The notes below the pieces were generated by a model. That model worked only from the letters and a program-made list of their open reading frames with translations. It was not told where the DNA came from and searched no databases. Made by a program: the position numbers and the translations under genes. From Brachycybe producta (lineage: Eukaryota; Arthropoda; Diplopoda; Playtdesmida; Andrognathidae): a DNA stretch of 64,000 bases. The stretch is taken from assembly GCA_036925085.1 (NCBI GenBank), contig JAUPFP010000002.1, positions 7,160,890-7,224,889 on the forward strand, read 5' to 3'. Shown in pieces: positions 1-57,269 of this stretch. Each line of letters begins with the position of its first letter. The stretch's first letter is position 1.

Positions 1-1112
1 TAGCAACACTTTTACATTATATTTTTGATTAATTAAACTTTGAGGTGTTTCATAGAGAGCCAACTCTTTGAGTAGCTTGAAAAGTGCTTAGAGAGTGACT
101 ATTTTATTATTTTTTTAAATTTTGGGATGTGGGTGACACAGTGGGTCATAATTACAATTTGTGCCAATTGACTTTAGGCATGTTTCCCCCCTTGCTACTT
201 CTTAATACACGACTTTTAATTAATAAAAATATTTAAAAAAAAATTTAAAATGACACGCAGAATTTTTCTGCTGCTAATATTACTAAGCACAATGGGGCTG
301 TTGTGACTTGTAATTTGTGCAATTGTTAAGACCAGGGTTAACACTAAGTTACTAGTCACTGCAAAATGGTCATATGCTTGATTAGTTATGTTGAAGTGAT
401 CATGTCTAATTTGTGACCCCTCTTTAACCAGTCTGTGACTGGTTGGGTGACCTAAATTCTTCAAGTAGACTTCCATCCTATTTTGAGATACCAGTCTGCA
501 GTGTCTAGCAAATGAGCTGCAAGCTAACAGAGTAGGGGCCTGTTTCTCAAAAGTACAAGTATTGTAAAACAAGTGAATTCTACGGAGCCCTGTAAAGGGC
601 ATGCATTGCAAATTCACAATTTGTGAATTTCTGCCATGTTAGTGCAACCCTTATACCTCGTTCCCACTACAAGCATTAACTGCAGATATACTAGAAGTGA
701 TACTTGTGATTGTTTCCATTTTTTAAACACCTGTGATTAAATGATTTTGTGACTTTCTGTTAAACAGTTGTGCATTTCGTGAAATTTTCACGTCTCATTC
801 GGTCAAAAATTGAGTGCTCTCGCCATCCGCCATGTTGTTTGTTGGCTAAATTTGTTTGAACACAGGAAGTGACGTATTTAACCATTCAATAATCTGGTTA
901 ATCATGTTATGTCAATGCAGTTCCGTTAACTTTTCAACTGCAGTTAAAATGATTATCACAGTTACGTTTTTAGTGGAAACAAATGTAGTTAAATTATTGG
1001 CACAGTTAAGTATGCCAACAACGAAGTTAACTGACCTTCATTTATACTGATCTTCATTACCTACTTATTTCAACCGTTTACATATGAAGATATCCCACTT
1101 ATTTATTATCTT
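1..1112. other. intergenic, no gene seen
   Basis: AT-rich sequence with only short open frames that show no recognisable motif. A block near 970-990 (GTGGAAACAAATGTAGTTA) recurs near 19757, so part of this stretch is probably old interspersed repeat. No promoter or RNA gene could be supported. Confidence 0.5.
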
Positions 1113-2137: not shown

Positions 2138-2455
2138 TTATTTTTTACTAAACCAATTTAACGGGTTAAAAATAGACCGTTTGCTCGCAGTGCCGTGGAA
2201 ATGTTGTATAATTCTTGGAATGTTGTGACATAGGTAACTTAAAGTATCAAATGTCTTCGTGCACGTTAATTCGTTTTCGTCGTCTTCGTTTGATCGTAAA
2301 GTTGCTGGTAGATCTTTGAGTTTAGACATGGTTGATGTCAAAACATTGCGTTTATACTTCAAGTTCAAGTTTGTCACTTGATCTTTGTAGGTTTTCCTCT
2401 GAGTACATGCCTTCATGTAGCGATCGACATTTCCGAAAGAGTAGTCTCCATTCAG
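2138..2455 (-). CDS. gene A exon 3 (cysteines 4-6, tail)
   Basis: Acceptor TTCTTTTCAG|CTGAAT, phase 0, 105 residues and a TAA stop. Cysteines are at exon positions 17, 65 and 76. The C5-x10-C6 spacing is shared with B and C. Confidence 0.75.
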   Translation of the reverse strand: MNGDYSFGNVDRYMKACTQRKTYKDQVTNLNLKYKRNVLTSTMSKLKDLPATLRSNEDDENELTCTKTFDTLSYLCHNIPRIIQHFHGTASKRSIFNPLNWFSKK

Positions 2456-5441
2456 CTGAAAAGAAAAAAACTTTTGCTTAGTCTAAAATTAGCCGAATTT
2501 GTGGTTGGTTTTCATGCACTTTTTGAGTTTCCAAATTCAAGCTCTGAACTGTGTGTTGTGTGTGCGAAATACAGAGCTCGACTCGATGCATAACCATTTT
2601 TCATGCAGTTCAACGATGCAAAAACACAGTGCACGTGAAACCACACCTTCACAGTCGCCACACTTTAGCTTTAGGATTGTAGCGGCAGAATTGTTGACTA
2701 AAAAGTTTGGCTTGTATCATTTTGTCATTCGTTATTTTTTTTTTGGGGGGGGGGATTGGTTTTGTCGGCTCGTTAAAACAAAATATTTCTTAAAGAAATG
2801 TCAAAATCATGTCAAGACTTAATCAACGATTTTTAAAATTTAAAATAAGTCATTAATATAATTTAAAAAATTAAAAATCAGTTAATATTATAAGTGGACT
2901 TTATCAGATAGATGCGCCACCAAACAACAGACATTGGCAATAAAAAAAACCAAAACTATACCTCCCTCTACTCGAATGCTGATACCATCAAGTTGAGGGG
3001 AATAAATTTTCGTTTTTTCGAAATTTAGAATGGCATTGTTTGGTGACTCATAAAAGTCACTTCATTTTTAAGTTTTTTTTTATGATTTTAATGGCATATT
3101 TTTAATTTTAAAAATTATTTTGGCAATCATTGGGTAAAGGTGGCCGTTCACGATGGGATCTGGACTGTTAGTCCAAATCGGTCGTTGATCCCACTGTCAA
3201 CGTGCTCATGGGATCAGATCCATCAGTACAAATACTCTAAAAAAATTTCATTTGCAAAGTTAATTGATCTTTACTGACATCAGTCTATATATCCGTACGT
3301 GAATGAGGGGAAAGAGATCAAATCCGTGGGATCTGAGAAAAAGAGCATGCGCTCTTGTGATCTATTGGATCTGATCCATACGTTAATGGGCTAAAAAGAG
3401 GCGGATCTGGACTGACAAAGGTCAGATCCGCGATCTATGTCAGTCCAGATCTCACTGGGGAAGGCCACCTTAATTAAGTCTTGACAATATTTCAATAAAA
3501 AATTTCCGGGGGTAATGAACTCGTTAAGTACTTTTGTTATATGGCTCCCATTTTATCAGTCAAAACGACGTCACAAGCCGAACTTTTTTTTTTAACTTTG
3601 TTTAATTTTATCATACCTGATTTTCTTGATTGTTAGCGCATAAGAAACCAAATTTATTATTACTGAACAATCTCCTTCTATCTTCGTCAGTTAGTGTGGC
3701 AATATTTATAGTGAATTTATCGTTAATAAATTTCACTTTATAACCATTGGTATTTCCATTTCGCAGTTTTCCTCTGATTTGGCAATTTGCAAGCAGGCTG
3801 TCACTCTCAATCCATTCAGAAATAACACAAGCTTTTAAAAGAGATACACACAAAGTACAATGTAGAATCATTCAAAGGCAGAGATGTACTTATTACAATG
3901 CTTTGTTTTAAGTAAATGCGGTTACAGTTGGCGCTTATTGTAAGCAATACAGAATAGTGACGTCACAGTCAATGCTGTTTACCACAAAAAATGTCAGTGG
4001 GTGCCGTATGATATGGTACATCCACACTGACACATTTTATATCACTCCAGTGTAACTGGTGTCACCAGGTTATAATTTTAGTAACTATTTTATCAATAAA
4101 AATCAAGAGATATGCTTGATATTTGAGGTGAAAATACCGAGCGCTCAAAATGTCATTTTACTTCAAAGATACCAACGACCAGTGCACCTGCTGCTGTCTT
4201 TATATTTTATCATATACTTTGTCACAAACAAAAGCATTTGATATTACAGTAAGTCCTCGAGTTACACGGTTTGAGTTACGTGAACTCAAAGATACGCGGT
4301 TGCTTTACTTCCGCTTATATCAGCAACGATCAATGATCATCAATTGGCTTTGTAAACGCAATCAAAGTAAGGAAGTACTTAATGGCATTCAACTTATGCG
4401 CAGGTTCGATTTGCGTAGAAATATCCGGAACGAATTTATTTTGCAAGGAGAGGACTTAATGTATTGTTGCATGCGCTTGGAACGCTGACTAAAGAATATA
4501 GCTGTCCACATTTTTAGCAACACAGACACCGAGTTTTCTATTCTGTATTGCAGTAAACATCAACCGTAAACGCTTGTACTTAGCCAGAAATGTAAGGTTG
4601 CAAATTATCGGGATTTACTGAGCGTTACTGAAGTAACTAGCCTATATGGGCAACCTTTTTTATTGTGTGGCCACTAGGGATGCCCTGAATGAAGCTATAA
4701 TAATGCATATAAGTGCAGATATAACATAATAGGGCAGTTGGTTGGTTAGCACATGTGCACAATATCCTTTCATTTTGTGTATTCACGGTCTGACGTCATT
4801 GAATTAAGTGCAGACGTGTAACAGGAAAGTTGGATTCAAATTCTTTTTTTTTTTCATTAAAATTTAAAAATTGATTAAAAGTTATTAAAAAATTTCAATT
4901 TTTGGATCAAAATAAAGATAATAATTAGAAGGACAACTCATCACTTTTCAGAGTATTTTCATGTGTTGATATCTTTCAAAATAAACTTTTACGAGAGTTT
5001 GAAAATTATCCAACTTGAAGCAGACTTATCTTTTTTTCAATTTTGTCTTTAAAAAGTTTATTTTGAAAGATATCATCATGAAAAAATACCCGTAAGTGGT
5101 TGAGCTACCTTCTAGTTTCTAAAACACGTTCAAGTTTATCTTCATTTTACACCTGAAAGACACAATAATCAAGAGTTCAAAATAAAGATTAAATATTCAA
5201 CATGGATATACATCAAAGCAATTATGACTAATTGATAAATGATAAAAAAATTGTGTCATTAATGTTAGGCCTACTTACGGTCGACATCAGGCGGTTCGTA
5301 GTTTATTGTTTCATCTGTATGTACTGTTGAAGGGCGTGATATTGGGCTTGACCCTTCTATTGACTCTCCATCCCTGCCATTGTCCATCCCCTTATTTATT
5401 GGAATATTAATTAGAAAAAATATTGCTACACTTAGTTTCAT
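2138..5441 (-). CDS. secreted six-cysteine protein, gene A of a tandem trio
   Basis: Hand-assembled gene of three exons: 5441-5279, 3831-3617 and 2455-2138. It encodes 231 residues. The function is unknown and I do not recognise the family. Residues 1-18 (MKLSVAIFFLINIPINKG) look like a signal peptide. A Ser/Asp/Glu-rich linker follows to about residue 54. Cysteines are at 56, 71, 119, 143, 191 and 202, with a tail ending WFSKK. Introns have GT/AG ends, phase 1 then phase 0. An upstream in-frame ATG at 5459 would add six residues (MLIFTR). I chose the inner Met because genes B and C start MKF and MKL. C1-C2-C3 spacing (14 and 47 residues) is identical to B and C. The tail is less basic than in B. 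Expression cannot be judged from sequence. Six even-spaced cysteines behind a signal peptide imply extracellular, disulfide-bonded action (inference). Confidence 0.75.
3138..3470. mobile_element. MITE, PIF/Harbinger-like (in gene A intron 2)
   Basis: Ends AGGTGGCC and GGCCACCT, followed inwards by matching GGATCTGGACTG blocks on both arms. The flanking trinucleotide TAA (3135-3137, 3471-3473) fits the TWA target duplication of PIF/Harbinger. The superfamily call rests on that short duplication only. Confidence 0.6.
3617..3831 (-). CDS. gene A exon 2 (cysteines 1-3)
   Basis: Acceptor TTTTAAAAG|CTTGT and donor ATCAG|GTATGA. It encodes 72 residues beginning P-C with W at the seventh position, as in the paralogs (75 residues there). 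Cysteines sit at exon positions 2, 17 and 65. Confidence 0.75.
4920..5185. repeat. family 1 palindromic MITE copy (gene A intron 1)
   Basis: Both arms carry the block GATATCTTTCAAAATAAACT or its complement, pairing around a centre near 5030. The right arm continues with CTTCTAGTTTCTAAAACAC and AATAATCAAGAGTTC, the signature of about 16 copies in this window. Confidence 0.75.
5279..5441 (-). CDS. gene A exon 1 (signal peptide and linker)
   Basis: Runs from ATG to donor GACC|GTAAGT, leaving phase 1. It encodes the leader plus a 36-residue linker ending PPDVD, the longest linker of the three paralogs. Confidence 0.72.
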
Positions 5442-6065
5442 GCGCGTAAATATTAGCATTGTGTTATTTTCTTTTCAGAATGGTGCTTTCTACTACTTGT
5501 AGCAAGTCTTGTCGAGACTGTACTTTTTACAGATGTTAGTTTCACCAGCGACCGTGTTCACTGTTCGTGGATATGGTGAACATAGTTTATGCAATTTTTA
5601 CTTTTTTTTTTTTTGCGAAATAAGCAGCCGCTCGACATGGTTATATTTTTTTTTTGTTGAGCACGATATCGTAGTCGATGTGTGGCCCGAATAGGCAATG
5701 ACGTAAACCATTGTCAATAGGCCAGATACAGAAGTCGGGGAAAAACATAATATTTTTTGATGGCAGTGATGAGTAAAACAGAAAAGAACATTCGCTCATC
5801 ATATGACCAACGTACCAATCGCACAGATAAGGAACGCGATTGTTTAAGAGACTATTGACGTGACTTAAGACACGTTTGATGCAATACAGCCGCATGCATT
5901 CAGTGTAATTTACACTAGGAAAACTTTATTTATGAAACAAATTAAATGACAACTTTTAATACACTTAATGTTTAAAAATCTTCATTTTCACACACAGACA
6001 CAGTTCATATTATGCAAATAAGTAAATCATTAAGCTGCTTTCTACATATACTGTATGCATGTAAG
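5442..6065. other. upstream of gene A, nothing firm
   Basis: Should contain the gene A promoter, but no TATA box or shared upstream block with B or C was found. Short open frames here show no motif. Confidence 0.35.
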
Positions 6066-6387
6066 GAGGGTTGCCATGATTTAATCAAAATGATTAAATT
6101 AAGTGGTTAAATCTTGATGAAATCATTGATTAAATCATGTTTTCACGTTTCATTTTTAATGGTTTATTTTATAAAATATAATGCCTTTTAACAGTTTCAT
6201 TTTACAACTTTTTTTTTTATCTTTTGTATTATTAGTAGCCTACAATTTTGTTAAATTAAAAAAAATAATAACTGAAATTTGTAATTAATAAAAAGTATAA
6301 TTAGTAAAGCAAATAAATAAAATAATAAAAAATAAAACATGATTTAATATAATTTTGATATAATAATAATAATTTTTTTTCGAACCC
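6066..6387. repeat. possible AT-rich element with 10-bp flanking repeat
   Basis: Flanked by TGCATGTAAG (6056-6065) and TGCATGGAAG (6388-6397), one mismatch. The ends GGGTTGCC and GAACCC are weakly inverted. The interior is very AT-rich with many GATTTAAT-type words. Low confidence because the inverted repeats are short. Confidence 0.35.
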
Positions 6388-6440
6388 TGCATGGAAGTTT
6401 TATATATTTGCTGAATATTATCTATTACGTGGTCAACCAC

Positions 6441-6866
6441 CAGGGGTGCCCACAGGGGGGTAGTCTGGTGAGCAACTCGCCATTTGCCTTTTTTGGGGGG
6501 TGATTGAAATTTTGTATTAAAATATTTTTATAATAATCAGAATGAGCGAAAATCCAAATTATTTTATTATTTAATTTATATTTTAAAAGAAAGTAGTGTT
6601 TCAGCCACTGTTATACGTCATATTACAAGTGCAGTTTTCTTACTGCTCGCTATGCTCGCCGGAATTGATACCAAGAGTATACTATAAAATAATTGCTCGC
6701 TCGCTACACTCACAAAATAGAGAAAATATTCATGTTTTCCAAAGTTTAAAGACTTTGTTTCAAACACACACATCTTATGGCCAATTGAAATTATATTTGC
6801 AAAGTTATAAAAAAAACGGGGGGGTGGTGAATTCTCCACTGGCTTTGGGGGGGTTGGGCACCCCTG
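6441..6866. mobile_element. hAT-type non-autonomous element
   Basis: Ends CAGGGGTGCCCA and the complement GGGCACCCCTG, with an exact 8-bp target duplication TCAACCAC at 6433-6440 and 6867-6874. Length 426 bp, no coding capacity. Open frames inside it are not genes. Confidence 0.9.
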
Positions 6867-7117
6867 TCAACCACCACATGTAGCGGAGAATTAACAATGA
6901 ATGTGTGACGAAATTTTGTATTGCCACGTGTTTGCTTCAACAGTAAAATCTAAATGAAACTCGGTGACATGCTAGCTGCAAATCGATCCTGTCTGACGAA
7001 GCTAGTACAGTAGTATGCAAATACAACTTTTTGTAAGACAAAAGAATTGTTCTACTGCTGAAAACAGAAACGAAAACGGAAATGTTTTACATTTTACATA
7101 TAGCTATTATACTTTCT

Positions 7118-7315
7118 GTGAACTTAGACCTGGGAATAAAACGGGGTAGAGGAAGACCCAAGCAAACCTGGGACGTGGTAGTAAAACGGGATATGGTGGC
7201 ATGTGGGGTCACTGGGGGCTTGGTGCAAAATCGGAACGAGTGGAGAGTTAGAACCAGCCAGGCCGACCCTGCTGCTTGCGTGATAAGGGACATGAAATGA
7301 TGATGATGATGATGG
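7118..7315 (+). mobile_element. 5'-truncated RTE LINE, 3' end fragment
   Basis: Encodes the last ~60 residues of the same RTE reverse transcriptase found complete at 23854-27097 (NLDLGIKRGRGRPKQTWDV... to a stop). It ends in a (TGA)n tail. A 7-bp target duplication ACTTTCT flanks it (7111-7117, 7316-7322). 5' truncation is the usual outcome of target-primed reverse transcription. Confidence 0.9.
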
Positions 7316-7421
7316 ACTTTCTAACACGTTATAAGAGATCCCACTTACACAACAAAAAACCTCAACAAAAGACGTACACATGCCAAAAATTTAAGAGGGT
7401 ATAGCGGGTTTGGCATACCAG

Positions 7422-7608
7422 TAGGCTTGCCACCATTGGAGGACAGTTCTCCATTCGGAAGATATGTCCTCCGCAAAGGTATTTTAAGTTTTTATAAAAA
7501 TGTTTATGTGGAGGACATGTTTGCCTTCGTGGAGAACGGTCCTGGCCGCAGGACAATCCTGCCGAATGCAGGACTGTCCTCCACAAAGAAGGAAAGGTGG
7601 CAAGTCTA
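7422..7608. mobile_element. hAT-type MITE, 187 bp
   Basis: Ends TAGGCTTGCCACC and the complement of TAGACTTGCCACC, with subterminal GGAGGACAG blocks. An exact 8-bp target duplication CATACCAG lies at 7414-7421 and 7609-7616. Confidence 0.9.
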
Positions 7609-7616
7609 CATACCAG

Positions 7617-8196
7617 TGACTCTTGCCCTTCCTTTTGGTTGCTTTTTCGACAGAAACTGTAAACTCAGTAAAAGTTGAGACAATCTCAACTTTGTTTTCA
7701 GCTCGTTTATATTTGTTTTACGTTGTTTTTTCGTTTTACGTCTTCTGTTTACATTTTACGTACGTGGGACCTTGACTTAATTCCGTGTTTCCCCAAATGT
7801 TGTTGTACGGAACCTTAGGGGTTCGTGAAGTGAAAGTAAAGCCAAGTTTAATATTCCTCAGTTAAACGTTATGTCTAGACTAGGGCCAGCCTCACATTAA
7901 TGTTTCAGTAACAACTAATAAGGTTGGAAATGTTTTCGAGATTTAAACACATAATGAATAGGGGGACATCCCTATGAGTCACAGGATTCGGTTGTGGTTT
8001 GGGGAAATTGTAGCATTTTAAAATTGGTTGGATTGTGAATTTGTGAGTGGCATGCATGGATTGATAGTTGTGTTGTTGCCATTGAGTGATTGATGGTATT
8101 GGCGTGAAATGGAGTTAGATTCAATTCAACTCATTTTAACTCTACATCTGCAATGAGTTTGAGAGCCATGTGGCAGAGGGATAATTTTCAGCCATT
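7617..8196. other. intergenic, nothing seen
   Basis: No open frame with recognisable motifs, no clear inverted repeats and no microsatellite. Confidence 0.4.
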
Positions 8197-9920
8197 TAAG
8201 GTGCTCGCCCAGTAGGTCGGTGACGCCGCACGTAGTTACCAAATAGAGATCCGCCCACTATGAACATGGCGCGGCACGCTTTGCCCCTCCATCCCTACTA
8301 CCTTAACCAGTATGTCACAGTATTCTTGGAGACAATGATGAGTAGTGGTGAGGACGTATTTTTTTTTGTGGCTGGTGTGGTCGCAGGGTTATAGCTAGAG
8401 TTAGTGCCGCCCTGGGCTGTTCTTGAGTTTACCGCCCCCTCCCTTACAAAAACACAACACAATACAAATCAGTGGCGCAGCCAGGGTTCTGGTCTGCGAG
8501 GGCCTAATCGATATTATCGATATCCAGTGATTGAAATGGTTTATAGAATTTTATAGTAATTATGAAATTATTACATAAGCCAGTTCCCGACAGTAAAGAT
8601 CAATTATCAATTTTCCAGAGTTAAAAAATAGCGCTGAATTGCAGAATACATTCCACGAGTATAGCAAGCGACAAAAACGTTTATTTTTGTTTTCTGCATT
8701 TTAGACCGACCCTTCTACAATCCCGACAGTGTAACGACCCGACTTGGGTCCGTTGCAACACCCCGGCAAAACTTCCCCGTCTTACCGGATCCTTGACTCC
8801 CTTGGGGCCGAGGTCGAAGCGCAGACTGCCCGCTCTTGTCCGTCCGGTCCCTGGGTGACGCCGGTCGAGAGTCGATCTCTCCGTAGGTCGACGGACGAAT
8901 GGCCGACGAACACAACGAAAAACCCACGGTAGACCCCCGATGGATCCTACCGTGGAACCGACGCGAAGTACCAGCCGATAACGACGGAAACAGGACGGTG
9001 ATGGTGCTGGCGTATCCCTACCGGAAACCCCCACCCTCCCCACGGTAACTTCCCCAGAAAATAAGTGACACGGACTCAGTGTGTTGAGTGAAAATAATGT
9101 AGATAATTTATTCAAAGAATAAATTGAAAACACTCACTGTTTAGGCAATATCTGCTGGATAAATGATCCAGCAGAGAACCAATCAAAGATGATAATTTAT
9201 TCAGTAAAGAATAAATGAATAAACACTTACTAATTATACAAGTAATCTGCTGGACAGTGGTCCAGCAGAGAAAACACAAAAGATGACTCTACTCCAGAGA
9301 ACAAAGAGATGAATGGTGGCCATCTTGGCCACCTGATGAAATTGAAGAAGCAATTACACATGCACACAGCATCAGGGTCTCACACACTGCCTAGAATATA
9401 ATGGCCGCCGCCATTATATACCCCCAGGCTGCTCCACCTGGGGGAGGACAGTGACCCTTGCTGGCCATTTTGTCGTCTGCCTGGCAGCTAATTAGCCAGC
9501 CTAGCAGACGACACAGGAGATTTAGTTCTGCTCCACATAAAGAGCAAAACTGGGTTGTCACAACAGGAAAGAAAAACTTTTGTTTTCGTTGATGCCGCCC
9601 TCAAAAATCCGCTCCAGTCCCGGTTCCCAGGTCAGACCACCGCCCCCCCCCCCGGCCCCACTCTCGCTACGCCACTGTGTGGTGGAGGAGAAAGTACACA
9701 AACTATGAAAAAAACCTGATAAATTCTTCTCTGCTCTCCCGACCATTAGGGCGGAAGTGAGAAGCGCGGCGAAGTTTCAAACTTTCCAGAGCGGTGCCGC
9801 GCCGCGCTTCTGTCCTAATGGACGGTGCTCCATTCATTTACACTTATACGCATTTTGTTTGGAAGCTGTTTTTCTCTCGGCACTGCGCTGTGTCACCGAC
9901 CTAGTGGGCGAGCAGCTTTA
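8197..9920. mobile_element. outer MITE of a nested insertion
   Basis: The left end TAAGGTGCTCGCCCAGTAGG matches the complement of the right end CCTAGTGGGCGAGCAGCTTTA, and both continue with GTCGGTGAC. Between them lie a CAGTGGCGCAGC-type left end (8472), a matching GCTACGCCACTG right end (to 9678), and the solo LTR at 8730-9562. A GC-rich hairpin at 9741-9820 (CCATTAGG to CCTAATGG, with GAAGCGCGGCG arms) lies in the right part. The flanks of the middle layer do not show a clean duplication, so that layer is less certain. Confidence 0.6.
8730..9562 (+). mobile_element. solo LTR 1, Ty3/Gypsy-like
   Basis: An 833-bp block, GC-rich in its left half, that starts TGTAACGACCC and ends GGTTGTCACA. 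The ends are imperfect inverted repeats of each other. A 4-bp duplication ACAG flanks it (8726-8729, 9563-9566). Inside, a segment with AATTTATTCA and CTGCTGGA...TCCAGCAGAG is duplicated at about 9100-9180 and 9190-9275. No gag or pol sequence lies nearby, so it is a solo LTR. Orientation is inferred from AATAAA words on the plus strand. Confidence 0.7.
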
Positions 9921-10430
9921 GTCATCGTCAAATTGAATTGGTTCTAAGACGGAACTATGTATAATAATGGGATGCTATAATCCAAATACATTTGGAAAAA
10001 AGTCCACAAATTTGCATCAGTTCTAGCTCTTTAATTTTTTTTTAATAAGCTTTGGATGTCCGTGTCTACTTAGACGGGGGTTTCTAGTAAGAATTCCACC
10101 TAACAAATGCTTTGTTCTCTGTAGCTGGCAAACGTTTAAGAACGGCAAAGCTTTTGCTCAGCTCTGCGGTTTACAAAATTAATGATTTCCACTGAAGTTG
10201 ATCCATTGCGGGGACCTATGCTGTACCTTTTCTATCAGTTGTCATTCTATACAAACAAAATAAGTCAATTTTTGTTTGCACAAGATTTTATTATTTTTTT
10301 TTTTCAAATACACTTTAAAAAAAATGTTTCAATCACAGATAAGTTCTCAGCTTTTAAAAAAAACTGGTTTCAGTTTTTCAGTAGTTTCAGTAATTTATAA
10401 ATACTGCATGCCTAAATTATAAAAATGTGG
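9921..10430. other. intergenic, 3' side of gene B
   Basis: AT-rich stretch with poly-T runs, nothing recognised. It separates the gene B stop codon from the nested transposon block. Confidence 0.4.
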
Positions 10431-10766
10431 TTAATGTCGTCGTCTTCTTTGTCGAAGTCTTCTTAATAGTCGTCTAGAGTTGTGAAATAATCTTATTGGT
10501 TTACGTAATGTTTTCAAAAATCTGTTTCCGGGATTTGCTAGCAATGAAAATTTCAAACATGAAAGCTGTATCTTGTATTCCATTTGCTCACATTGATTCA
10601 AAGTTAAATCGATTTCTGCTGGAATTGTCATATCCTGAAATTCTATTTTCAAAATGTTTTCTGAATATTCCATATTTATATTGGGCAGTTTATGTTTGTA
10701 AATTCCACTTTGTACACATATTCTTAGAAATTCAGAAGCCTCATTCAAGTTGAATTTGTCAGATAA
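10431..10766 (-). CDS. gene B exon 3 (cysteines 4-6, Arg-rich tail)
   Basis: Acceptor TTTTTTTCAG|TTATCT, phase 0, 111 residues and stop. It carries the MEYSEN motif shared with C and the polyarginine C terminus. Confidence 0.78.
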   Translation of the reverse strand, partial: LSDKFNLNEASEFLRICVQSGIYKHKLPNINMEYSENILKIEFQDMTIPAEIDLTLNQCEQMEYKIQLSCLKFSLLANPGNRFLKTLRKPIRLFHNSRRLLRRLRQRRRRH

Positions 10767-12895
10767 CTGAAAAAAAAAAGTGAAGGTCGGTCATTCATTA
10801 ATTAGGATTTTTTTAATTTATTAATTAGATGAATTAATTAATTTGTAGTAAGATAGAAATTAAAATGGTTTATGGACAGCTGATTATCGAACTCAATTAT
10901 TCTGTATTTTTCTTTTTTCAGGAGCAAAGTTCAGAGAAACTAGAAAGTGTTTTTAGAAACTAGATGGGTAGCTAAATTTCTTAAGGTCATTTTCAAAAAA
11001 AAATTAGAAAAATATTGTCTGCTTAAAATTGCGTCACATAAAAAGCTTATTCTGAAAGAAATCAGCACGAAAATACCTTTTAAGTGCAGTTTCAGCTACC
11101 CTTCTAGTTATTAAAATATATTCAAGTCCCTCTTCATTTTGCTCCTGTAAGACAGAATAATCAAGAGTTTGAGAGAGGCGTTTACACTTTTAAAACCACC
11201 TTAATTAATTATTGCAGTTTGTTAGCAGACGATTTTTCTATCATCATTTTACATATATATTTATGTGTGGCCACTTATAAAAAAGAAACGTCTTAATTCT
11301 GACCTCATTCATTCGACCATCGACATTGCCGGTACACCAATAGTTGAGGTATTCATCACCGAAGATTTTGTTGCGTATTTTTTTGAATGCTTTTGGAATG
11401 TTGATTTCAAAGGTCGTCTTTTTTATGCGCGCACTGTAAGCGTCTCTGTTGTCAGCCATTCTCGTTTTCTCGATTATACAGTTCATTTTCAGATTTTTGT
11501 TTTCGATCCAGTTTTCTGTTTGACAGGCTTTTAAAAAAATGAAATCAAAACAACAATATTTAATTTAATTATTATAAGGTAGGACTCATCTGTTTTATTT
11601 CTCAAATAATTAATGTACGAGCGTAAAAGCCAAGTGTACATGTGACAAGATCTTTACGAAACAATGTTAAGAAGAAAGTGTCTATGAAGATTTTTAAGCT
11701 TAAGGTGGTTGAATAGACATTTTATTTTGTTTTTGGCCCTCCGGATGACGCCACTACTGTGGCTAATATCCTAATGGTATGCTTTATAGACGTTTTTGTT
11801 AAATTTTTAAATTATTTTTAAATTTTTTCAAGCAAACTTTGTTTTAGATAGGGATTGGACAATTCGAATCCCGCGAATCTTGAAAAATATTGGTGATTCG
11901 AAAACTCGAATCTTCGGGCTTTTAACCTAAAAAAAACTGGTAAAAATAGTTTTAACTCCATTGACGTCCAATAGAAGCGTTCACTAACAAAAAAAAATGG
12001 CGATTGTTGCAATTTCGTTGGTACCAGGATCACCAATTTAATATTTAATATTATTTCATTTATTTGTATCTTTTTAATGAATAATATAGGATTCTTATAA
12101 TATGAAGGATTCGAGAACCTTTTAGGATTCGGATTTGTTAAATTTACGATTCGTCCAACCTCAAGTTTTAGAAACAACATTAGGAAAAAATTCAAATTGT
12201 TTTCAAAACTAGAATGGTAAAAGATTATGCAAAAAGTTCTTTCTTCGCAATATATTATAAACGCAAAAAATAAACATTATATTGCAGTTTGAAAATGACC
12301 CGTTTGGAGGGTTTTCCATGGACATTCCATGAAAAACTTATTTTCTCCTTTTTCAAACTGCCATAAAAAAGTTTATTTTGAAAGATACCGTCATGAAAAA
12401 ACTTTTAACATTATCAGCAACTATTCTAATTTATAAAACACTGAATATCTTTTGTAAAGTTTTTCTTAAAAAAACAAGGTTGCTTGAAAAATATAAATCT
12501 CTCAAAACCCCTGAATATATATTTACATTATAACATTTTATGTCATTTAAGGGATCTTGCAGACCCACACGGGAGCGGTAATGGCCCTGTTGATAAGTCG
12601 CTGGACATCCAAATGAAATGAGAAATGGGGTCGCCCACACCAACACTTCGGTACTGCCGGCGGGTGAGCTCATTGCCCGCTATATGTTGGATGTCCCGCG
12701 ACCTTAATTATTTCAAACGTTTACTTATTTACTCATTTTGCTACACTGCCATTTTTTTTCAGTTGTATTACACATGTTTTAGTTTGGTAACTTACGATCG
12801 TATTCTTCTTCTTCTTCCGAACCATCTTCATTTCTGTCTACGGCGTTTATAATTATAAAAAGCGTTGAAACGAAATAAATTACATAAAACTTCAT
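10431..12895 (-). CDS. secreted six-cysteine protein with Arg-rich tail, gene B
   Basis: Hand-assembled from exons 12895-12796, 11527-11304 and 10766-10431; 219 residues. Residues 1-18 form a hydrophobic leader (MKFYVIYFVSTLFIIINA). A short acidic linker with five consecutive Glu leads to the splice at YD. Cysteines are at 35, 50, 98, 125, 167 and 178. The last 24 residues hold eleven Arg, one Lys and two His, ending RRLLRRLRQRRRRH. Intron phases 1 and 0 match A and C. The FGDEYLNY segment before C3 is close to FGDDYLGY in C, and MEYSEN in exon 3 is identical to C, so B and C are nearer to each other than to A. Family unknown. The acidic leader side and strongly cationic end resemble host-defence peptide precursors such as cathelicidins in layout only, not in recognisable sequence. 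Confidence 0.78.
10864..11204. repeat. family 1 MITE copy (gene B intron 2)
   Basis: Near full-length: left arm with ATGGTTTATGGACAGC and CGAACTC, AGAAACTAGA in the middle, right end GTTTACACTTTTAAAACCACCTTA. Confidence 0.75.
11304..11527 (-). CDS. gene B exon 2 (cysteines 1-3)
   Basis: Acceptor TTTAAAAG|CCTGT and donor AATGAG|GTCAGA. It encodes 75 residues from P-C to NE, the same length as exon 2 of C. Confidence 0.78.
11849..12164. mobile_element. hAT-type MITE (gene B intron 1)
   Basis: Left end TAGGGATTGGAC pairs with the complement of the right end GTCCAACCTCAA (9 of 12). An exact 8-bp duplication GTTTTAGA lies at 11841-11848 and 12165-12172. The interior is rich in GATTCGAA words. 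Confidence 0.75.
12290..12445. repeat. family 1 MITE fragment (gene B intron 1)
   Basis: Carries the GTTTATTTTGAAAGATA and TTCTAATTTATAAAACA blocks of the family 1 right arm; the left arm is missing or diverged. Confidence 0.55.
12541..12706. repeat. GC-rich unclassified insert (gene B intron 1)
   Basis: Clearly richer in G+C than its AT-rich flanks. GTCGCTGGACATCCAA on one arm pairs with TTGGATGTCCCGCGACC on the other, and the outer ends read TTAAGGGATC and GACCTTAA. Looks like a small transposon or SINE-like fragment; no target duplication was established. Confidence 0.4.
12796..12895 (-). CDS. gene B exon 1 (signal peptide, Glu-rich linker)
   Basis: ATG to donor CGATC|GTAAGT, phase 1, 33 complete codons. 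Too short to stand out as an open frame; recognised by alignment of leader and donor with A and C. Confidence 0.7.
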
Positions 12896-13880
12896 ATTTA
12901 GAAACCCGGTTCATCCGTCGTTTCTAACTTTATTGTAATATTCAGTCAGGTTTGGAATATTCAATTACGTATATTGTTCCAGGTGGTTTTCAAATTATTC
13001 CTTATTTAAACTATTATGTAAATGTTGTCTGTTACACTTATATATTTATATACTTATATATTTTCTGTCTGTAGTTTGTTAGGATAAATTCGTTTTCATA
13101 TATTTAAATTTAAGACAAACGGATAACTCGAAAATAACACAAAAAAAATATATTTTTCGGTTTTAAGAATACAAAATCTGCCTAAAGTCAGTTCTTAACA
13201 CGAAAAATTTAAGGCCTCTTTTTTTTTAAAAAAAAAAAGAGTGCTTGAATTTTATCTTTTTCACGAAATTGTTGTATAATACAAAACATTATAAAACATG
13301 TTTTTCCATTTTCTTTAAATGTTATATCCGTTTTCTTTGAACACAAAATTTGGTTAACACGAAAAAAATATCCATCTCTTCCTTTGTCTGTTAAACAGTT
13401 TAGACCCAACTTCGTGAGTGTTTTTGACTGAATATTTGACTTTTATATTATACTGTCATTTTAATGATCACGTAGACAACTTGTGCGTTTTGTGAGGTTT
13501 GAAACAGCTGTAACCATCTGGGACGATTCTATCATGGACGACGCCGAGGGGCGTGTACAGCTCAGGGCGCAAAAATGTGAGCGCAAAATACAAATAAAGG
13601 TAATACTAAAGGGCGCCAATTTTATTCCAAAATTATGCTCTGAGCTGTGTGTTGTGTACAAAACACAGCGCACACCTCATCGCGTGTGCATTTTCATGTT
13701 AGGAGTCGGTCGTCAGCTTTTAACTGTGAGCCCCATGTACCGTGCACACAATTCCTGTCTGTCTTTGACACGTGTTTTGCCGTGTGCTGTGCTACGTGTT
13801 TCTACTCATGTGACGTCATTTCTCATCATCTCAGCCAACAAGAGTGTCACAAAAGAGTACAGGTTACCTTTTTTTTTTAC
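12896..13880. other. intergenic between genes B and C, repeat-rich
   Basis: Should include the gene B promoter, but none was recognised. A block near 13633 (CTGAGCTGTGTGTTGTGT) resembles one near 2545, with nearby AAACACAGCGCAC words, pointing to an old dispersed repeat. The open frame at 13483-13884 covers this repeat and shows no domain. Confidence 0.4.
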
Positions 13881-14915
13881 ATGAGTTAAATGAATTCAAA
13901 TTAAATGTGTTTAGGTGAATTATACGGAATCCAGTTAAGGACATATACCAAATAAGAATGGACTTTATTGTTAATATTTTAAATTGAAATACTAAATGTG
14001 ACGTGACTGGCCCGTTGGTGCCACCGTTTTGACGCGGTGGCGCCGACTCTGGTGGACCAGCCGTTGACGATGATTTTACCGCTCGCAACATTTTTGTATT
14101 TACAGTCCTTTCGCGAGTGGGTTCATCTGCTCTCAAAGTCCACAAAAAGACTTTTTCTATCCTCGGGAATCTTCGGTATAGGGCGTGACGACGTCGATGG
14201 CACTCTCACTGTTCTTTTGAGTTAACCCGGAGGCTCCACGCAGAGAGACTCAGATAGTATCCGAGTGCTTCTGTTGGGATTTCCGTTTCTTTTCGGAATT
14301 AGAAAACTCAATCTTAATGCATAACACTGTACACACAAAATTGAGGTAGATAATATCAATTCTTTACTGTTATCTTTTACATCGTGGTATACAGATCCTT
14401 TACAGATATTTGGTACTTTTACATTATATCAAAAACTCTTTCTTAGTCAGGACTTGAACTCTTTTCTGTCCTCTGACCAACTCTCTACTGTCCTCACACA
14501 TAAATCCCATGATACTTTCGTCCAGTCTCCTGGGAGGGGCGACTGTCGCCTCAGGGCTCAATGATTGACATATTTTTGGGACTCTTTTCCCAATTCTCAC
14601 GGTTCGACTGGGTTCCACGAATTCACACAGAATTCGGGCCACCCAAGTCTGAACATCTGTGCACCAAGGGGTGCCATACTGAAAGAAAGGAATTTCTACG
14701 GGGTGCTCCACCATTCTGCAAATACAGGGTGTCACATAAATCAATATTTTGTCAATACTTTATATATTAAGTATTAACTCAATATTTTCAGATTAATTAA
14801 CTGAATAAATTGAATTCGACATATTGTTTGTTTGCCCTTCACAGAGGGCTCTGTATAACACGTTTATTATTTAAATGCATTTAAATCAGGTGTGTACTAG
14901 GTATAAGGTTATCTG
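13881..14915. repeat. family 4 repeat interrupted by an LTR
   Basis: Outside 13997-14736 this sequence is a reverse-complement relative of 54700-54975. Shared words include GGTGAATTATACGGAATCC, GTTTGTTTGC and TTTAAATGCATTTAAAT. The uninterrupted copy shows the ancestral structure. Confidence 0.8.
13997..14736. mobile_element. solo LTR 2, Ty3/Gypsy-like
   Basis: A 740-bp insert starting TGTGACGTGACTGG and ending GGGTGTCACA, flanked by the 4-bp duplication TAAA (13993-13996, 14737-14740). The paralogous repeat at 54700-54975 has a single TAAA (as TTTA at 54852-54855) at the same place, so the insertion boundaries are confirmed by an empty site. No internal retroviral genes are present. Confidence 0.85.
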
Positions 14916-14957
14916 TCACAATAAACCACCTATTCCCACATCACGTTAATCGTGTTC

Positions 14958-15060
14958 TTTAAGATGGTTTTTACGTGCAAACGCTTCTCGAACTCTTTAA
15001 TTATTTTGTCTTTCAGGTACAAAATAAAGGAAAACCTGAATGTGTTTTATTCTGCACTTG
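14958..15060. repeat. family 1 MITE, left arm only
   Basis: Matches the family start: TTTAAGATGGTTTTTACGTG, TCTCGAACTC, TTTCAGGTACAAAATAAAG, AATGTGTTTTA. The rest is absent. Confidence 0.6.
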
Positions 15061-15192
15061 TGGTCAGACCATTTGTGGTTGAGCCGTTGACCATTGTATA
15101 CCTGCAGAAAAAGCCAGTATAGTGAGGTTTATGGTTGACCTTGACATAAACAAATTATATTTTATTATGGCAGCATTCTATAGATAAGTAAC

Positions 15193-15420
15193 ATGGCAGA
15201 CATGTTGACATGGCTACCTTCAGTCTGCAAAAGCTCCTTATCATTGGGTAGCTCCGTACTGGAAAAATACGATCACAAGAGTGTTTCTCGTGGTCATAAA
15301 AATCATTATCATAGTCAAGTTGGAGCTGGACCACTGCAGTTCATGAATGGTTCGACGATAAGTGCAAAAAAAAAAACCGAGGGATTCAAGGAACCTTATG
15401 GACCTCCTCCATCGCTTTAA
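15193..15420 (+). CDS. hypothetical 75-residue open frame
   Basis: A single open frame beginning MADMLTWLPS and ending GPPPSL. It has no recognisable domain, signal peptide or cysteine pattern. It contains a run of ten A coding for Lys. It lies on the opposite strand from the flanking gene cluster. It may be chance, a single exon of an unseen gene, or a retrocopy remnant. I keep it only because its composition is less AT-rich than neighbouring chance frames. Confidence 0.2.
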   Translation: MADMLTWLPSVCKSSLSLGSSVLEKYDHKSVSRGHKNHYHSQVGAGPLQFMNGSTISAKKKTEGFKEPYGPPPSL

Positions 15421-15656
15421 TGTAATAATTAGAATGTGATGTTGATGTCACACATCTAGTTTTTAAACCATTTTTAATTTCTTTTTTAATCTTGCTTTGA
15501 TATATCAAACAGCCAGTTTTATTCCATTGTTACATGTGTACGCACATGCACACGCGTGTTGGTAGAAGTAATTATTGCCTCTTACAATGCTTCTAAAAGT
15601 ACAACAAAGGTAGGCATTCTCAATACAAAATATACATAATAGTGAATCATGTAGAT

Positions 15657-15968
15657 TTATGTCTCTAAGCGTCTTCTCCAGAACGGTTTGCGTAACAGTT
15701 GTATGAATTTGTTTGGTGTTTTTGCTAGTTTCTTTGCTATCATTGGAATTTTGACGCAAGAATAAATGGCGATATTTTCAAATTTCTCACACTCATTCGT
15801 ACTTGGCTCTATTATTGCCGGAATCTCATTAACATCTTCAAATGTAATCGTCAAAACATTTTCTGAATATTCCATTTCCATGTTGGACACTGTGACTTTA
15901 AAAATCTCACAATCTATACAGGTGTCTACAAAAACTGCAATATTATCCATGTTATAACCTTCAAGTAA
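15657..15968 (-). CDS. gene C exon 3 (cysteines 4-6, tail)
   Basis: Acceptor TTTTTCTTTTCAG|TTACTT, phase 0, 103 residues and stop. It carries MEYSENVL, nearly identical to MEYSENIL in B. Confidence 0.78.
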   Translation of the reverse strand, partial: LLEGYNMDNIAVFVDTCIDCEIFKVTVSNMEMEYSENVLTITFEDVNEIPAIIEPSTNECEKFENIAIYSCVKIPMIAKKLAKTPNKFIQLLRKPFWRRRLET

Positions 15969-18663
15969 CTGAAAAGAAAAATATAAAATATTGAATTACT
16001 AGTGGGGTAACCCGTCATAAATGACGGGAGCAAAATTCACAGGCAATTGTGCACATGCGCGTCGTTTTTTTCGTTTTTTTACTCCTTTCATTTCAATTTC
16101 AGTCACCCCCTCCACGTTTCTCTCTCTCTCTCTCTCCCCCCCCCCTTCTACACTTTCCAACCTTTTCCTCACTCCAATTTAATATCATGGGGTTCTTGGA
16201 TGGGAAGGGTGCAACATATAGTTGACCTTGAGAAAAAAAGCTGTTCATTTCTTCATTTATTTAAATTTATATAAATTCCGACGTGCTTCAATGGTTGTAT
16301 AGCGTTACTTCAGAGACAGATACACAGACCTGGCATAATATATACTGTATATAATTATGAAAAATACAGCTGTGATGATGATAGCTAATATTTAGAATAG
16401 GTTGTTTTCTTTGCAAATTCCTTGTTTATGCGTTTTCCAACCAATAATGCTAAGGCTAGTTTCACACGAGCATATCCTTCTGGTGGCGCTGATCAAGTGC
16501 CAAATTGAACAAACGCCAATCTGAACTAACGCCAAACTGAATAAAAGCCAAATGGAACAAACACCAAACTGAATAAGCGCCAAATGGAACAAACGCCAAA
16601 CTGAATAAGCGCCAAATGGAACAAACGTCAAACTGAATAAGCGCCAAATTTTTGGCTTTTATTCAGTTTGGCGTTTCTTCCATTTGTGGCTTATTCAGTT
16701 TGGCGTTTCTTCCATTTGTGGCTTATTCAGTTTGGCGTTTGTTCAATTTGGCCCCATCCTTCTGAACTTCCCCCCCCCCCCAAAAAAAAAAAAATAAACG
16801 GATCCTGCAGCAGCAAATCGTATTTTATGTGCAGCATTCGACAGCGTATAAAAGTGAATGTTAGAAGTACCGGGACCAATACGTGCCTGAATCTGGGCTC
16901 TTGTTAATCTACCACCAACGTTCTTTGGCTGCTGGCAGAGTATTTTTTTTTTCAAATTCTAAATTCTATTTATTGTGGTAAACATGCAGTCAAGGTGTTA
17001 GCATACAAGTTAGCTGTAAGACAAATTGACATAACCAGAGCATGAACTGTGCGAATCGAAACGTGCTTTTATTTCTTTATACAAAACACATTCTATTTAA
17101 CTCGTGTGAAACGAGCCTCTTAGGGCAGGCAGCCTCAAACGATGCGTGCATTTGCCTTGTATATGCAAATATTTTGTTTGTTCAGTTTAGTTGTACTTTA
17201 TGGGTTTATGTGTGTTTAATTCACCTCATTGAATTCACCTTCCACTTGGGCTGTACAAAAATATCCTAGATAATCATCGCCAAAGATTTTCTTGTTATTG
17301 TCTAGAAATGCTTTTTGTAGGTTTATTTGAAAGATTTTCTTCTTTACAGTCAGTTTGTAGCCGTCTTTGTCTTCATCCATTTTTATTTTTTTAATTTTAC
17401 AATTCTTTCTCAGTTTAAAGGCGTTGATCCATTGTTTTGTGTCACATCCTTTAATAGAAAAAAAAATGAGAATAAGCTGAATTGCAATTAGTAAATAGTA
17501 CTAAATACACATTAGTGTTGCAGAACTCCAGACTTTATAATTGGACGTCTCAGACTTTAAGAAGCACTTTATAGAAAATACATTAACAACTAAAGTGGTA
17601 ATTGAATGTGGTTAAAAAATATAATGTGATTGTAACTGTTGTGAGGTGTTTTTTTTCTAATTGAGCTTTATATGAAAATTAACTTTTGTGTAAGTACAAA
17701 AAAAACTGAAATGACAGACCCACTCTTTATTTTCACGTATTTAAAAATGAGCTTCTTGAGGTGGTTTTAAAGTGTAAACGCCTCTCAAACGCTTATTTAT
17801 TTATTTATTTATTTTTTCAGGTGAAAAATAAAGAGAATCTTCTACAGTATGTGTTTTAGAAACTAGAAAGGTAAGATATTTTCATGTTTGATATTTTTCA
17901 AAGTAAGCTTTTTTTATGTCAGTTTTAAACCTAATTTCTAAAATACTTTCTCGTTTCTCTTAATTTTGCTCCTTAAAGACAAATTAATTAAGAGTTCACA
18001 AATCAGTTGTTAATCATAAACCAATTTAACGAAATTTGAAAAATGATTAAATTTCAAGTTAGCTTATAAAAATTAATACCGAAGTGGTTTTCATTTCAAG
18101 ACTGTCAACATTTGACCGTGTTTGAAAAGTAAATAGAAAGCTAATATCTGGAAAGAAAAGAAGTCATGTTTGCATTATTATAGCCTCTTCCTATGAGTCT
18201 TTCTATGGCTTCATATTTCAGAAGAAGAAAACGGCAAAATCGAGCACATCCGGCAATTTCTTTTAAAGAATTGTCTGGCAGGTGGAGCAGCCACACTCCT
18301 AAATTCTTTACACCTTTAGTTTCCGGACACATCCATTTTTATATTTTAAAAAAAAACTTAAGTAGGCTAGCATTTTCTGGCTTCTGCTGCTGGAATTAGG
18401 CCATTTAGTTAATGTATTTTAAGGTAAGATTACTCTCTATTGCGCATGTGCATTGTTCAAAACTTCAAATGCACCAATCAAAACAGATTGTACTTCAGTA
18501 ACTGCATTCTACACATGCGCAGTAAAGTTCAGCCTTACCTTAACCTCGATTAAGAGATTCTGATGCTTAACTTACGATTGTACTCTCGCGATGCAGCTAT
18601 TATGTTGGTTATACATGTATTTACAAAAATGTTAAAAATGGTACACATTAGATAGAGCTTCAT
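15657..18663 (-). CDS. secreted six-cysteine protein, gene C of the trio
   Basis: Hand-assembled from exons 18663-18576, 17448-17225 and 15968-15657; 207 residues. The leader MKLYLMCTIFNIFVNTCI is hydrophobic. The linker is nearly absent (about six residues, ASREYN). Conserved cysteines are at 31, 46, 94, 121, 164 and 175, and an extra Cys at 124 is not found in A or B. The tail includes RKPFWRRRLET, basic but shorter than in B. Exon 2 is Lys-rich (KIKKIKMDEDKDGYK) and ends FGDDYLGYFC..., as in B. Intron phases 1 and 0 match the paralogs. Intron 2 holds a Helitron-like element whose end lies about 30 bp from the exon 3 acceptor, followed by a foldback element. Family unknown; secretion and disulfide bonding are inferred from the leader and the fixed cysteine frame. 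Confidence 0.76.
15999..16345 (-). mobile_element. non-autonomous Helitron-like element, copy 1
   Basis: Read on the minus strand, the 3' end has the hairpin CCCGTCAT/ATGACGGG, then eight bases, then CTAG followed by host T. This is the Helitron 3' signature. The body shares blocks with copies at 23.3-23.6 and 31.6-32.3 kb (for example CATATAGTTGACC, CCGACGTGCTT, ACAGACCTGGC). The 5' boundary lies in a TATA-rich stretch and is approximate. Confidence 0.65.
16483..16755. mobile_element. foldback element with tandem repeats, 9-bp target duplication
   Basis: The left arm is a tandem array of a two-part unit, CAAACTGAATAAGCGC plus CAAATGGAACAAACGC (about 36 bp together). The right arm is its reverse complement, centred near 16648. 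A 9-bp duplication ATCCTTCTG flanks it (16474-16482, 16756-16764). The end GTGGCGCTGA recurs at 59036. Open frames through it on both strands are artefacts of the repeat. Confidence 0.8.
17225..17448 (-). CDS. gene C exon 2 (cysteines 1-3)
   Basis: Acceptor CTATTAAAG|GATGTG and donor AATGAG|GTGAAT. 75 residues, with cysteines at exon positions 2, 17 and 65 exactly as in A and B. Confidence 0.78.
17755..18005. repeat. family 1 MITE copy (gene C intron 1)
   Basis: Left end GAGGTGGTTTTAAAGTGTAA, then CGCCTCTCAAACGC, GTTTTAGAAACTAGAAAGG; right arm with TTTCTAAAATACTTTC and TTAAGAGTTC. Confidence 0.75.
18576..18663 (-). CDS. gene C exon 1 (signal peptide)
   Basis: ATG to donor CAATC|GTAAGT, 29 codons plus one base, phase 1. 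Far too short to be found as an open frame; recognised from the shared MK(L/F) start and donor. Confidence 0.68.
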
Positions 18664-23868: not shown

Positions 23869-25449
23869 TCATTTCCTGTACCTTATCCCGCAAGCAGCAG
23901 GGTCGGCCTTGCTGGTTCTAACTCTCCACTCGTTCCGATTTTGCACCAAGCCCCCAGTGACCCCACATGCCACCATATCCCGTTTTACTACCACATCCCA
24001 GGTTTGCTTGGGTCTTCCTCTACCCCGTTTTATTCCCAGGTCTAAGTTCATTGCCTGTCTCAGCAGCCCATCTTCTCCACTCCTGAGGACATGCCCAAAC
24101 CACCGCAGCCTATTTTCCTGCATCTTTTCTACTATATTTGTTACCCCTACACTACCCCTAATAAAATCATTTCTGATCCTATCCCTTCTGGTCACCCCAC
24201 TCATAAACCTTAGCATTCTCATCTCAGCTACCTGCATTCTATCCTCATGCACCTTCTTGATTGCCCAACATTCTGACCCATACAACATAGCTGGTCTGAC
24301 TACTGTTCTATAAAACTTTCCCTTCAATTTTATAGGTAACTTCCTGTCACATAAAACCCCACTAGCCTGCCTCCACCTATGCCAACCTGCTTTTATCCGG
24401 TTTGTGATGTCTAAGTCTAAGCTCCCATCATCTTGCAGCACAGATCCTAAATATTTGAAGTCATGCACCTGCTGCATTAAACTGTCCCCAAGTCTAATCC
24501 CCTCATTCAACTGTTCTTTCCCATCCCAATGAAATTTCATGTACTCTGTTTTTGCCCTACTTATTTTCAACCCCTTTGATTCCAAGGCATTCCTAGTCTC
24601 CTCTAACCTTATCTCGAGTTCCAATTTGGATTCCCCAACTAAGACTATGTCATCTGCAAACAGCATACACCAGGGGACCTCCTGCCTCACCCCTGCCAGT
24701 AACTCATCCAGGACCAAAATAAATAGATATGGACTAAGTGCTGAGCCCTGGTGCACACCAATCCTAACACGAAAACTGTCAGAGAACCCCCAGGCAGTCT
24801 TAACGCTTGTCCGTGCATCCCTATACATGTCCCTCACCATATCTATATAACTCTCACCCACCCCCTTCTTCTGTAAGACCTCCCACAATAATGTCCGTGG
24901 TACTCTGTCATAGGCTTTCTCTAGATCTATAAATACCATGTGTAACTCTTTCTTGGCAGCCCGAAACTTCTCAATAACTTGCCTTACGGCAAAAATGGGG
25001 TGCATTGTGGATTTTCCTGGCATAAACCCAAACTGGCTTCCTCCAATTGCAGTTTTACCCCGTAGTCGAGCTTCAATTACTCTCTCCCAAAGCTTCATCG
25101 TATGACTCATCAATTTAATACCTCTATAGTTCCCACATTCCTGAACATCACCCTTCCCTTTGAAAATAGGCACTAACCAGCTGTCCCGCCATGCACCTGG
25201 CATTCTATCCCCCATAGCCAATCTATTGAATAACTTTGTGAGCCAGGAAATGGCAACATTCCCCAAGACCTTCCACACCTCTACTGGTATCCCATCTGGC
25301 CCTAAAGCCTTCCCTAGCTTCATTTTTCGCAATGCCTGAACAATTTCCTCAGCCCTAACCTGCTCCACTTCTTCTCTATCATTATTTCTTCCAGTGAAAG
25401 GCTCCTGCTCTACCCCCTCATTCATAAGCTTACTAAAATATTCCCCCAC
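23869..25449 (-). CDS. RTE LINE, reverse transcriptase part
   Basis: 526 residues. The reverse transcriptase motifs are in order: LGPDGIPVEVWK, NYRGIKLMSHTMKLWERVI, FMPGKSTMHPIFAVRQ, FIDLEKAYDRVPR (first catalytic Asp), GVHQGSALSPYLF, and FADDIVLVGE (second and third Asp). The thumb region YLGSVLQDDGSLD...IKAGWHRWRQ and the C-terminal RLRWFGHVLR and GRGRPKQTW segments are also typical. The enzyme copies element RNA at a nicked chromosomal site. No stop or frameshift occurs within this part. The stop codon TGA is the first unit of the (TGA)n tail. Confidence 0.93.
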   Translation of the reverse strand: MGEYFSKLMNEGVEQEPFTGRNNDREEVEQVRAEEIVQALRKMKLGKALGPDGIPVEVWKVLGNVAISWLTKLFNRLAMGDRMPGAWRDSWLVPIFKGKGDVQECGNYRGIKLMSHTMKLWERVIEARLRGKTAIGGSQFGFMPGKSTMHPIFAVRQVIEKFRAAKKELHMVFIDLEKAYDRVPRTLLWEVLQKKGVGESYIDMVRDMYRDARTSVKTAWGFSDSFRVRIGVHQGSALSPYLFILVLDELLAGVRQEVPWCMLFADDIVLVGESKLELEIRLEETRNALESKGLKISRAKTEYMKFHWDGKEQLNEGIRLGDSLMQQVHDFKYLGSVLQDDGSLDLDITNRIKAGWHRWRQASGVLCDRKLPIKLKGKFYRTVVRPAMLYGSECWAIKKVHEDRMQVAEMRMLRFMSGVTRRDRIRNDFIRGSVGVTNIVEKMQENRLRWFGHVLRSGEDGLLRQAMNLDLGIKRGRGRPKQTWDVVVKRDMVACGVTGGLVQNRNEWRVRTSKADPAACGIRYRK

Positions 25450-26953: not shown

Positions 26954-27113
26954 CCGGGCTGGGGGACCGGCAATGGCGTGGTTTGGTTTTGGTCTGCCCT
27001 GAGTATTTTATGCCCTCAGTACCCTCCATATCTGGCGGGCATTCCCCTATCCGCCACCTGGGGAGGCACCCGATAGGGGACCAACTACCCCCACGGGTGT
27101 GTAATAAGCCTCA

Positions 27114-57250: not shown

Positions 57251-57269
57251 ATTCCCAGCACGACTTTGA

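Follow-up and report, generated by a model that had tools for sequence, protein, structure and literature searches.

A diverged family of predicted secreted six-cysteine proteins encoded in two clusters on one contig of an arthropod genome

Insect odorant-binding proteins (OBPs) are all-helical secreted proteins that occur in tandem arrays. Cathelicidin-type precursors join a signal peptide and a conserved disulfide domain, the cathelin domain with its four cysteines, to a divergent cationic tail, and the arthropod anti-lipopolysaccharide factors (ALFs) are secreted, cationic proteins of ~100 aa that combine helix and sheet and have one disulfide. Cystatin/cathelin-like, ML, lipocalin and ALF-like proteins are examples of secreted folds. 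The cysteine spacing of lepidopteran OBPs is C1-X25-30-C2-X3-C3-X36-42-C4-X8-14-C5-X8-C6, as given in an excerpt of PMC10056595. Aphid symbiosis-related proteins, as an excerpt of PMC3574423 presents them, are orphan secreted proteins to which genes of other organisms show no similarity. The family described here can be likened to these by description, being orphan and apparently secreted, and the literature searches made returned nothing that could be linked to a secreted six-cysteine family of this kind.

The window, by which we mean the whole 64,000-nucleotide stretch analyzed, covers positions 7160890 to 7224889 of contig C2 (JAUPFP010000002.1) in a genome of 295 Mb and 442 contigs. This genome contains no fewer than 33 matches to PF00379, the cuticle-protein domain, and because abundance of PF00379 marks arthropods, we take the host to be an arthropod. 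Contig 442 is a 15.4-kb mitochondrial genome (invertebrate code 5) with cox1-cox2, cox3-nad3, nad6-cob, nad2 and nad4L-nad4-nad5 on the cox1 strand and nad1 opposite, an order rearranged for an arthropod; cox1 was named by Pfam and the other genes by eye, and ARAGORN, in its bacterial setting, found no tRNA there. The order differs from the mitochondrial table for Strigamia maritima as excerpted from PMC4368715. Further cox1 copies on large contigs, one at contig C1:12697416-12698753 that spans the profile with one stop and four pieces on contig C17 between 3332011 and 4029047, are probably nuclear insertions.

A sequence-only reading of the window had proposed a tandem trio of genes, each with three short exons and intron phases 1 and 0. 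Enumeration of splice sites bears this out: G3, G2 and G1 lie head-to-tail on the minus strand from 18663 to 2138, in order of descending coordinate. Each is predicted to have three exons, separated by GT..AG introns of phases 1 and 0, and the predicted proteins measure 207, 219 and 231 aa, respectively (Table 1). For G1 the model chosen was the one whose exon 3 begins at the pyrimidine-rich CTTTTCAG; G2 and G3 are represented by their longest models. The start codons of G3 (18663, MKL), G2 (12895, MKF) and G1 (5441, MKL) each lead into a signal-like segment, in keeping with the MK(L/F) signal peptide that had been read there. The donor described as splitting an Arg codon stood in part, with C/GTAAGT ending exon 1 in all three window genes and the split codon being Arg in G3 only and Pro in G1 and G2 (donor C plus CT or CC). 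Exon 1 of the three genes was assigned from its start, signal-like stretch, phase and GTAAGT donor, and in a genome search with G3 the first exon of that gene matched at its own locus only. Poly-A-like signals lie 52 to 211 bases past the stop in G2 to G5 and 497 bases past it in G1, a feature given zero weight, with no control in AT-rich DNA.

Table 1. Predicted exons of the five family members; positions of G1 to G3 are those of the window, positions of G4 and G5 those of contig C2, and a slash marks the exon-intron boundary in donor sequences
Feature	Position	Strand	Description
G3 exon 1	18576-18663	-	start codon, signal-like segment, phase 1 end, C/GTAAGT, split Arg
G3 exon 2	17225-17448	-	C1, C2, C3; phase 0 end, donor GAG/GTGAAT; leave-one-out E 7.9e-23
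G3 exon 3	15657-15968	-	C4, C5, C6, basic tail, stop; leave-one-out E 2.1e-23
G2 exon 1	12796-12895	-	signal-like segment and acidic linker, split Pro
G2 exon 2	11304-11527	-	C1, C2, C3; leave-one-out E 8.4e-20
G2 exon 3	10431-10766	-	C4, C5, C6, Arg-rich amphipathic tail, stop; leave-one-out E 4.7e-14
G1 exon 1	5279-5441	-	signal-like segment and long acidic linker, split Pro
G1 exon 2	3617-3831	-	C1, C2, C3; leave-one-out E 6.2e-10
G1 exon 3	2138-2455	-	C4, C5, C6, basic tail, stop; leave-one-out E 1.2e-12
G4 exon 1	7614546 (start)	+	MKFF..., donor ATC/GTAAGA, phase 1
G4 exon 2	7615918-7616136	+	from Cys C1; then 102-base intron
G4 exon 3	7616239-7616610	+	family match
G5 exon 2	7621064 (Cys C1) to 7620831	-	phase-0 junction to exon 3
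G5 exon 3	7620033 to 7619641 (stop)	-	spotted by eye in the ORF list

Several other elements were seen in the window. Intron 2 of G3 holds, at 16490-16752, a 32-base tandem repeat whose two 102-base arms are 89% complementary and 2 bases apart, forming a long potential hairpin. Frames for reverse transcriptase (PF00078) and endonuclease (PF03372) belong to a non-LTR retrotransposon at 23869-27007 on the minus strand, and parts of a gene for a Ras-family small GTPase lie on the plus strand at 48306-56255, with PF00071 in frames 48306-48803 and 55716-56255. The long open frames on both strands of 56922-58118 lie mostly over a short tandem repeat array (57295-57915).

That these genes form a family, and are not a chance arrangement of open frames, is argued by leave-one-out analysis of exons 2 and 3, in which HMMs built from the remaining members (4, or 3 or 4 for exon sets with G5) were run against six-frame ORFs from 133.8 kb spanning both clusters. 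Nine of the ten exons of G1 to G5 were recovered, at E values of 2.1e-23 to 1.5e-8 against 0.0063 to 0.48 for the best unrelated frames; for the window genes recovery was complete (6/6, E 6.2e-10 to 2.1e-23; best unrelated, 0.018 to 0.48). The exception was exon 2 of G5 (E 1.7 against a background of 0.37), whose membership rests on place, strand, frame and cysteines. Identity to G3 in the alignment is 43% for G2 and 25% for G1. At the DNA level, the G2 and G3 loci share collinear similarity in exons 2 and 3; six other matches, inverted or not in the same order, are read as interspersed repeats. The length of open frames was rejected as proof of genes, being weak on this score: 14 frames of at least 104 aa were observed in the first 22 kb against 4.8 expected from 30 Markov sequences. 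That the genes are tandem duplicates with signal-like starts and a common cysteine frame is supported within the reach of these tools.

Whole-genome searches with G3, G1, G4 and a profile consensus returned G1 to G3 and a second cluster, with G4 and G5, ~0.44 Mb off on the same contig. Within 49.8 kb around the locus, the first exon assigned to G4 is the sole plus-strand candidate in which an MK start and a signal-like segment are combined with a GTAAG phase-1 donor; that of G5 is unsure, with two weak candidates. The full anatomy of three exons, an MK start and introns of phases 1 and 0 is thus found in four of the five copies, and G5 consists of exons 2 and 3 with their phase-0 junction. As a query, G5 returned itself and one chance match, and no clear sixth member emerged from the whole-genome searches. 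These score best candidates only, one exon at a time, and the count of five copies is therefore a minimum. The suggestion that more copies might lie left of 2138 did not hold, with none convincing within 20 kb and the two additional genes found well to the right of it on the same contig. Two sequences beyond the left edge of the window, one resembling exon 3 at a distance of 18 kb (L022 2011-2154, E 0.005 to 0.05) and a weaker one resembling exon 2, on the same strand 3.5 kb upstream of the first (L022 5655-5789, E 0.05 to 0.24), both lack cysteines; they are probably chance matches and could conceivably be a decayed sixth copy. A match on contig C1 (L047, E 0.31) is interrupted by stops, lacks the cysteine frame and was rejected as chance. 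The neighborhood also includes an arrestin C-terminal domain in the left flank of G4 (L018 921-1427) and, left of the window (L021 4906-9432), a threonyl-tRNA synthetase recognized by eye, with a TGS domain match under the cut-off.

The most constant property of the family is its cysteine frame. With the split codon counted as position 1, cysteines occupy positions 2, 17 and 65 of exon 2 and position 17 of exon 3 in all three window genes, exactly as had been read for C1 to C4, and the ten residues noted between C5 and C6 recur in all five members. Spacers from C1 to C6 are 14-47-23-47-10 in G1, 14-47-26-41-10 in G2, 14-47-26-42-10 in G3, 14-46-28-41-10 in G4 and 15-42-36-42-10 in G5. Additional cysteines are found in G3 (one in the core after C4 and two in the signal region) and in G4 (one before C3). 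Twelve alignment columns are invariant across G1 to G5, comprising the six Cys, two Asn, Tyr, Lys, Leu and Pro, and the six-cysteine core spans 144 to 151 aa. We infer that the six cysteines form three disulfides, of which C5-C6 may be one. An internal repeat, with exon 2 resembling exon 3, was considered and rejected (profile score 9.26; 60 column-shuffled controls averaged 9.29).

Outside the core, G1 to G4 have a hydrophobic start, beyond which no strongly hydrophobic stretch recurs (the 19-residue mean stays at or below 0.41, Eisenberg scale), and their proteins look secreted. Glycosylation motifs number none in G1 to G3 and two in G4. The linker, from residue 19 on, is acidic in G1 (net charge -7), G2 (-8) and G4 (-5), and G3 is without an acidic linker (+1). 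The tail after C6 has a net charge of +5 in G1, +15 in G2, +9 in G3, +9 in G4 and +1 in G5. Its helix moment exceeds that of shuffled sequences in G2 (fraction 0.019) and G3 (0.022), and the tails of G1 (0.239), G4 (0.578) and G5 (0.418) are no more amphipathic than shuffles. A cationic amphipathic tail was therefore rejected as a feature of the family, given the charge of G5 and the shuffle-like tails of G1, G4 and G5.

Like insect OBPs, the family is found in an arthropod, is predicted to be secreted, has six conserved cysteines and is arranged in tandem. However, the spacing in G1 and G2 is off at four gaps and also at the fifth (10 versus 8), and the family models hint, at low confidence, at strands, whereas OBPs are all-helical. 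The OBP domain PF01395 gave no Pfam match in any of the five members at E up to 10 and none in the whole genome, the latter search being without a positive control. Cathelicidin-type precursors are alike in signal peptide, conserved cysteine domain and divergent cationic tail, but the family has six cysteines and a tail that is cationic in four of five members and amphipathic beyond shuffles in two of five; a Pfam match to a cathelin/cystatin-like domain was found in none of the five. ALFs are likewise secreted and cationic with mixed helix and sheet, from which the family differs in its six conserved cysteines and 144- to 151-aa core, and no Pfam match links the two.

At E up to 10, Pfam returned nothing beyond chance for G1 to G5, the weak matches to DUF2535 (0.041), BK_channel_a (0.12) and Emr1 (0.28) involving one member each, and NCBIfam likewise gave nothing beyond chance for the family. 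A three-member profile found no match among PDB sequences at E up to 10; a five-member profile found one, to a glycosyl hydrolase at E 0.67, judged to be chance. In a large protein database, 194 word-sharing candidates for full-length G3 and 52 for G4 included none at E of 1 or below, and exon 3 of G3 alone drew zero candidates; run without a positive control, these negatives cannot establish absence of relatives from other arthropods. Virus relatives were sought with one peptide pattern, which had 31 matches in viral contigs, none related; for bacterial genomes, no part of the family proved sufficiently conserved to search with. The earlier view that the proteins match no known family accordingly holds as far as these tools reach. 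Structure prediction had also been suggested as a check: AlphaFold (AF2) models built from three sequences reached a pLDDT of 43 for exon 3 alone and 44 for exon 2 alone. Both give a faint indication of one helix and then two strands, and they are too poor for the fold to be named. The family may already be present as an uncharacterized protein in the animal's own annotation.

The members had been described as strongly diverged, and they are, with paralogues differing at 58 to 76% of aligned residues (58 to 74% among G1 to G4). Much of this is owed to age, since third positions are near saturation in 9 of 10 pairs (identity 0.33 to 0.43; chance, 0.26 to 0.29). The least saturated pair, G2-G3 (third-position identity 0.55), has a dN of 0.46, a dS of 0.76 and a dN/dS of 0.61 by a counting method over 148 core codons, with 95% of 300 codon bootstraps between 0.35 and 1.04 and 9 of the 300 at or above 1. 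In the 24-codon tail of this pair, dN is 0.58 and dS 1.11. Seven further pairs gave dN/dS of 0.30 to 0.52 at dS of at least 1.65 and so are not relied on, no dS value was obtained for G1-G2 and G1-G3, and a second method gave 0.36 for G3-G4. A dN/dS of 0.61 is fast for intact genes. G2 and G3 are fast-changing by this measure, at a value that falls short of proving positive selection or an arms race.

We consider it probable (about 0.78) that these genes represent a small, secreted, single-domain family of an arthropod, without relatives found elsewhere, that arose by old duplication and now lies in two clusters on one contig. On this reading, the signal peptide would be cut off, and exons 2 and 3 would encode one domain held by three disulfides, placed after an acidic linker in G1, G2 and G4 and before a cationic tail in G1 to G4. 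The product could then act as an extracellular binding protein in which the disulfide core bears a changeable surface and the cationic tail holds anionic targets, for example microbial or glycan surfaces. Such a binding protein with a role of the humoral defense type is the functional reading we lean to, as a tentative proposal. A bolder version, in which a novel six-cysteine fold of one arthropod lineage serves in secreted defense or attack, its disulfide core fixed and its surface and cationic tail changing under selection, we regard as unlikely. As possible as the defense role is that the proteins belong to a known secreted fold, such as those named at the outset, and have diverged too strongly for profiles to recognize. 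The low-confidence models, with a helix and two strands per exon, are consistent with this, and paralogues that already differ at 58 to 76% of residues imply that outside relatives could be invisible; the absence of matches beyond chance in Pfam, NCBIfam and PDB sequences speaks against it.

The sequence-only reading had likened a fixed disulfide frame with fast surface change to secreted proteins that face pathogens, prey or mates, three settings between which the sequences do not discriminate. The same signal-like start, cysteine frame and duplicated, fast-changing copies, in an arthropod genome, would also suit venom or salivary proteins directed against prey or hosts, but five copies with third positions near saturation in 9 of 10 pairs show no recent burst, and this origin seems doubtful. 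Seminal-fluid or egg-coat proteins shaped by mating conflict are about equally doubtful: start, frame and duplication fit them as well, and so does the G2-G3 ratio, whose 95% range fits weak constraint equally. The size, signal-like start and six cysteines might instead denote a soluble protein that carries small hydrophobic molecules, OBP-like in its working without being an OBP. This is improbable, as G1 to G3 (14-47-23..26-41..47-10) do not follow OBP cysteine spacing and the family has no PF01395 match. Least probable of all is that the copies are functionless at present and decaying under relaxed constraint. That G5 possibly lacks exon 1, and that the dN/dS range extends to 1.04, would accord with decay, but G1 to G4 have kept open exons and GT-AG sites despite 58 to 74% protein divergence, and few bootstraps reach 1.

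The favored interpretation, a small family of old duplicates with predicted secreted single-domain products, is at present well supported as a gene family and of an ordinary kind, and it would gain importance if expression were linked to venom, mating or immunity. New folds, toxins and immune proteins commonly arise in orphan secreted families whose cysteine frame is fixed, and short exons make such families easily missed. With five copies, a fixed frame and one gene structure, this family offers a clean test set.
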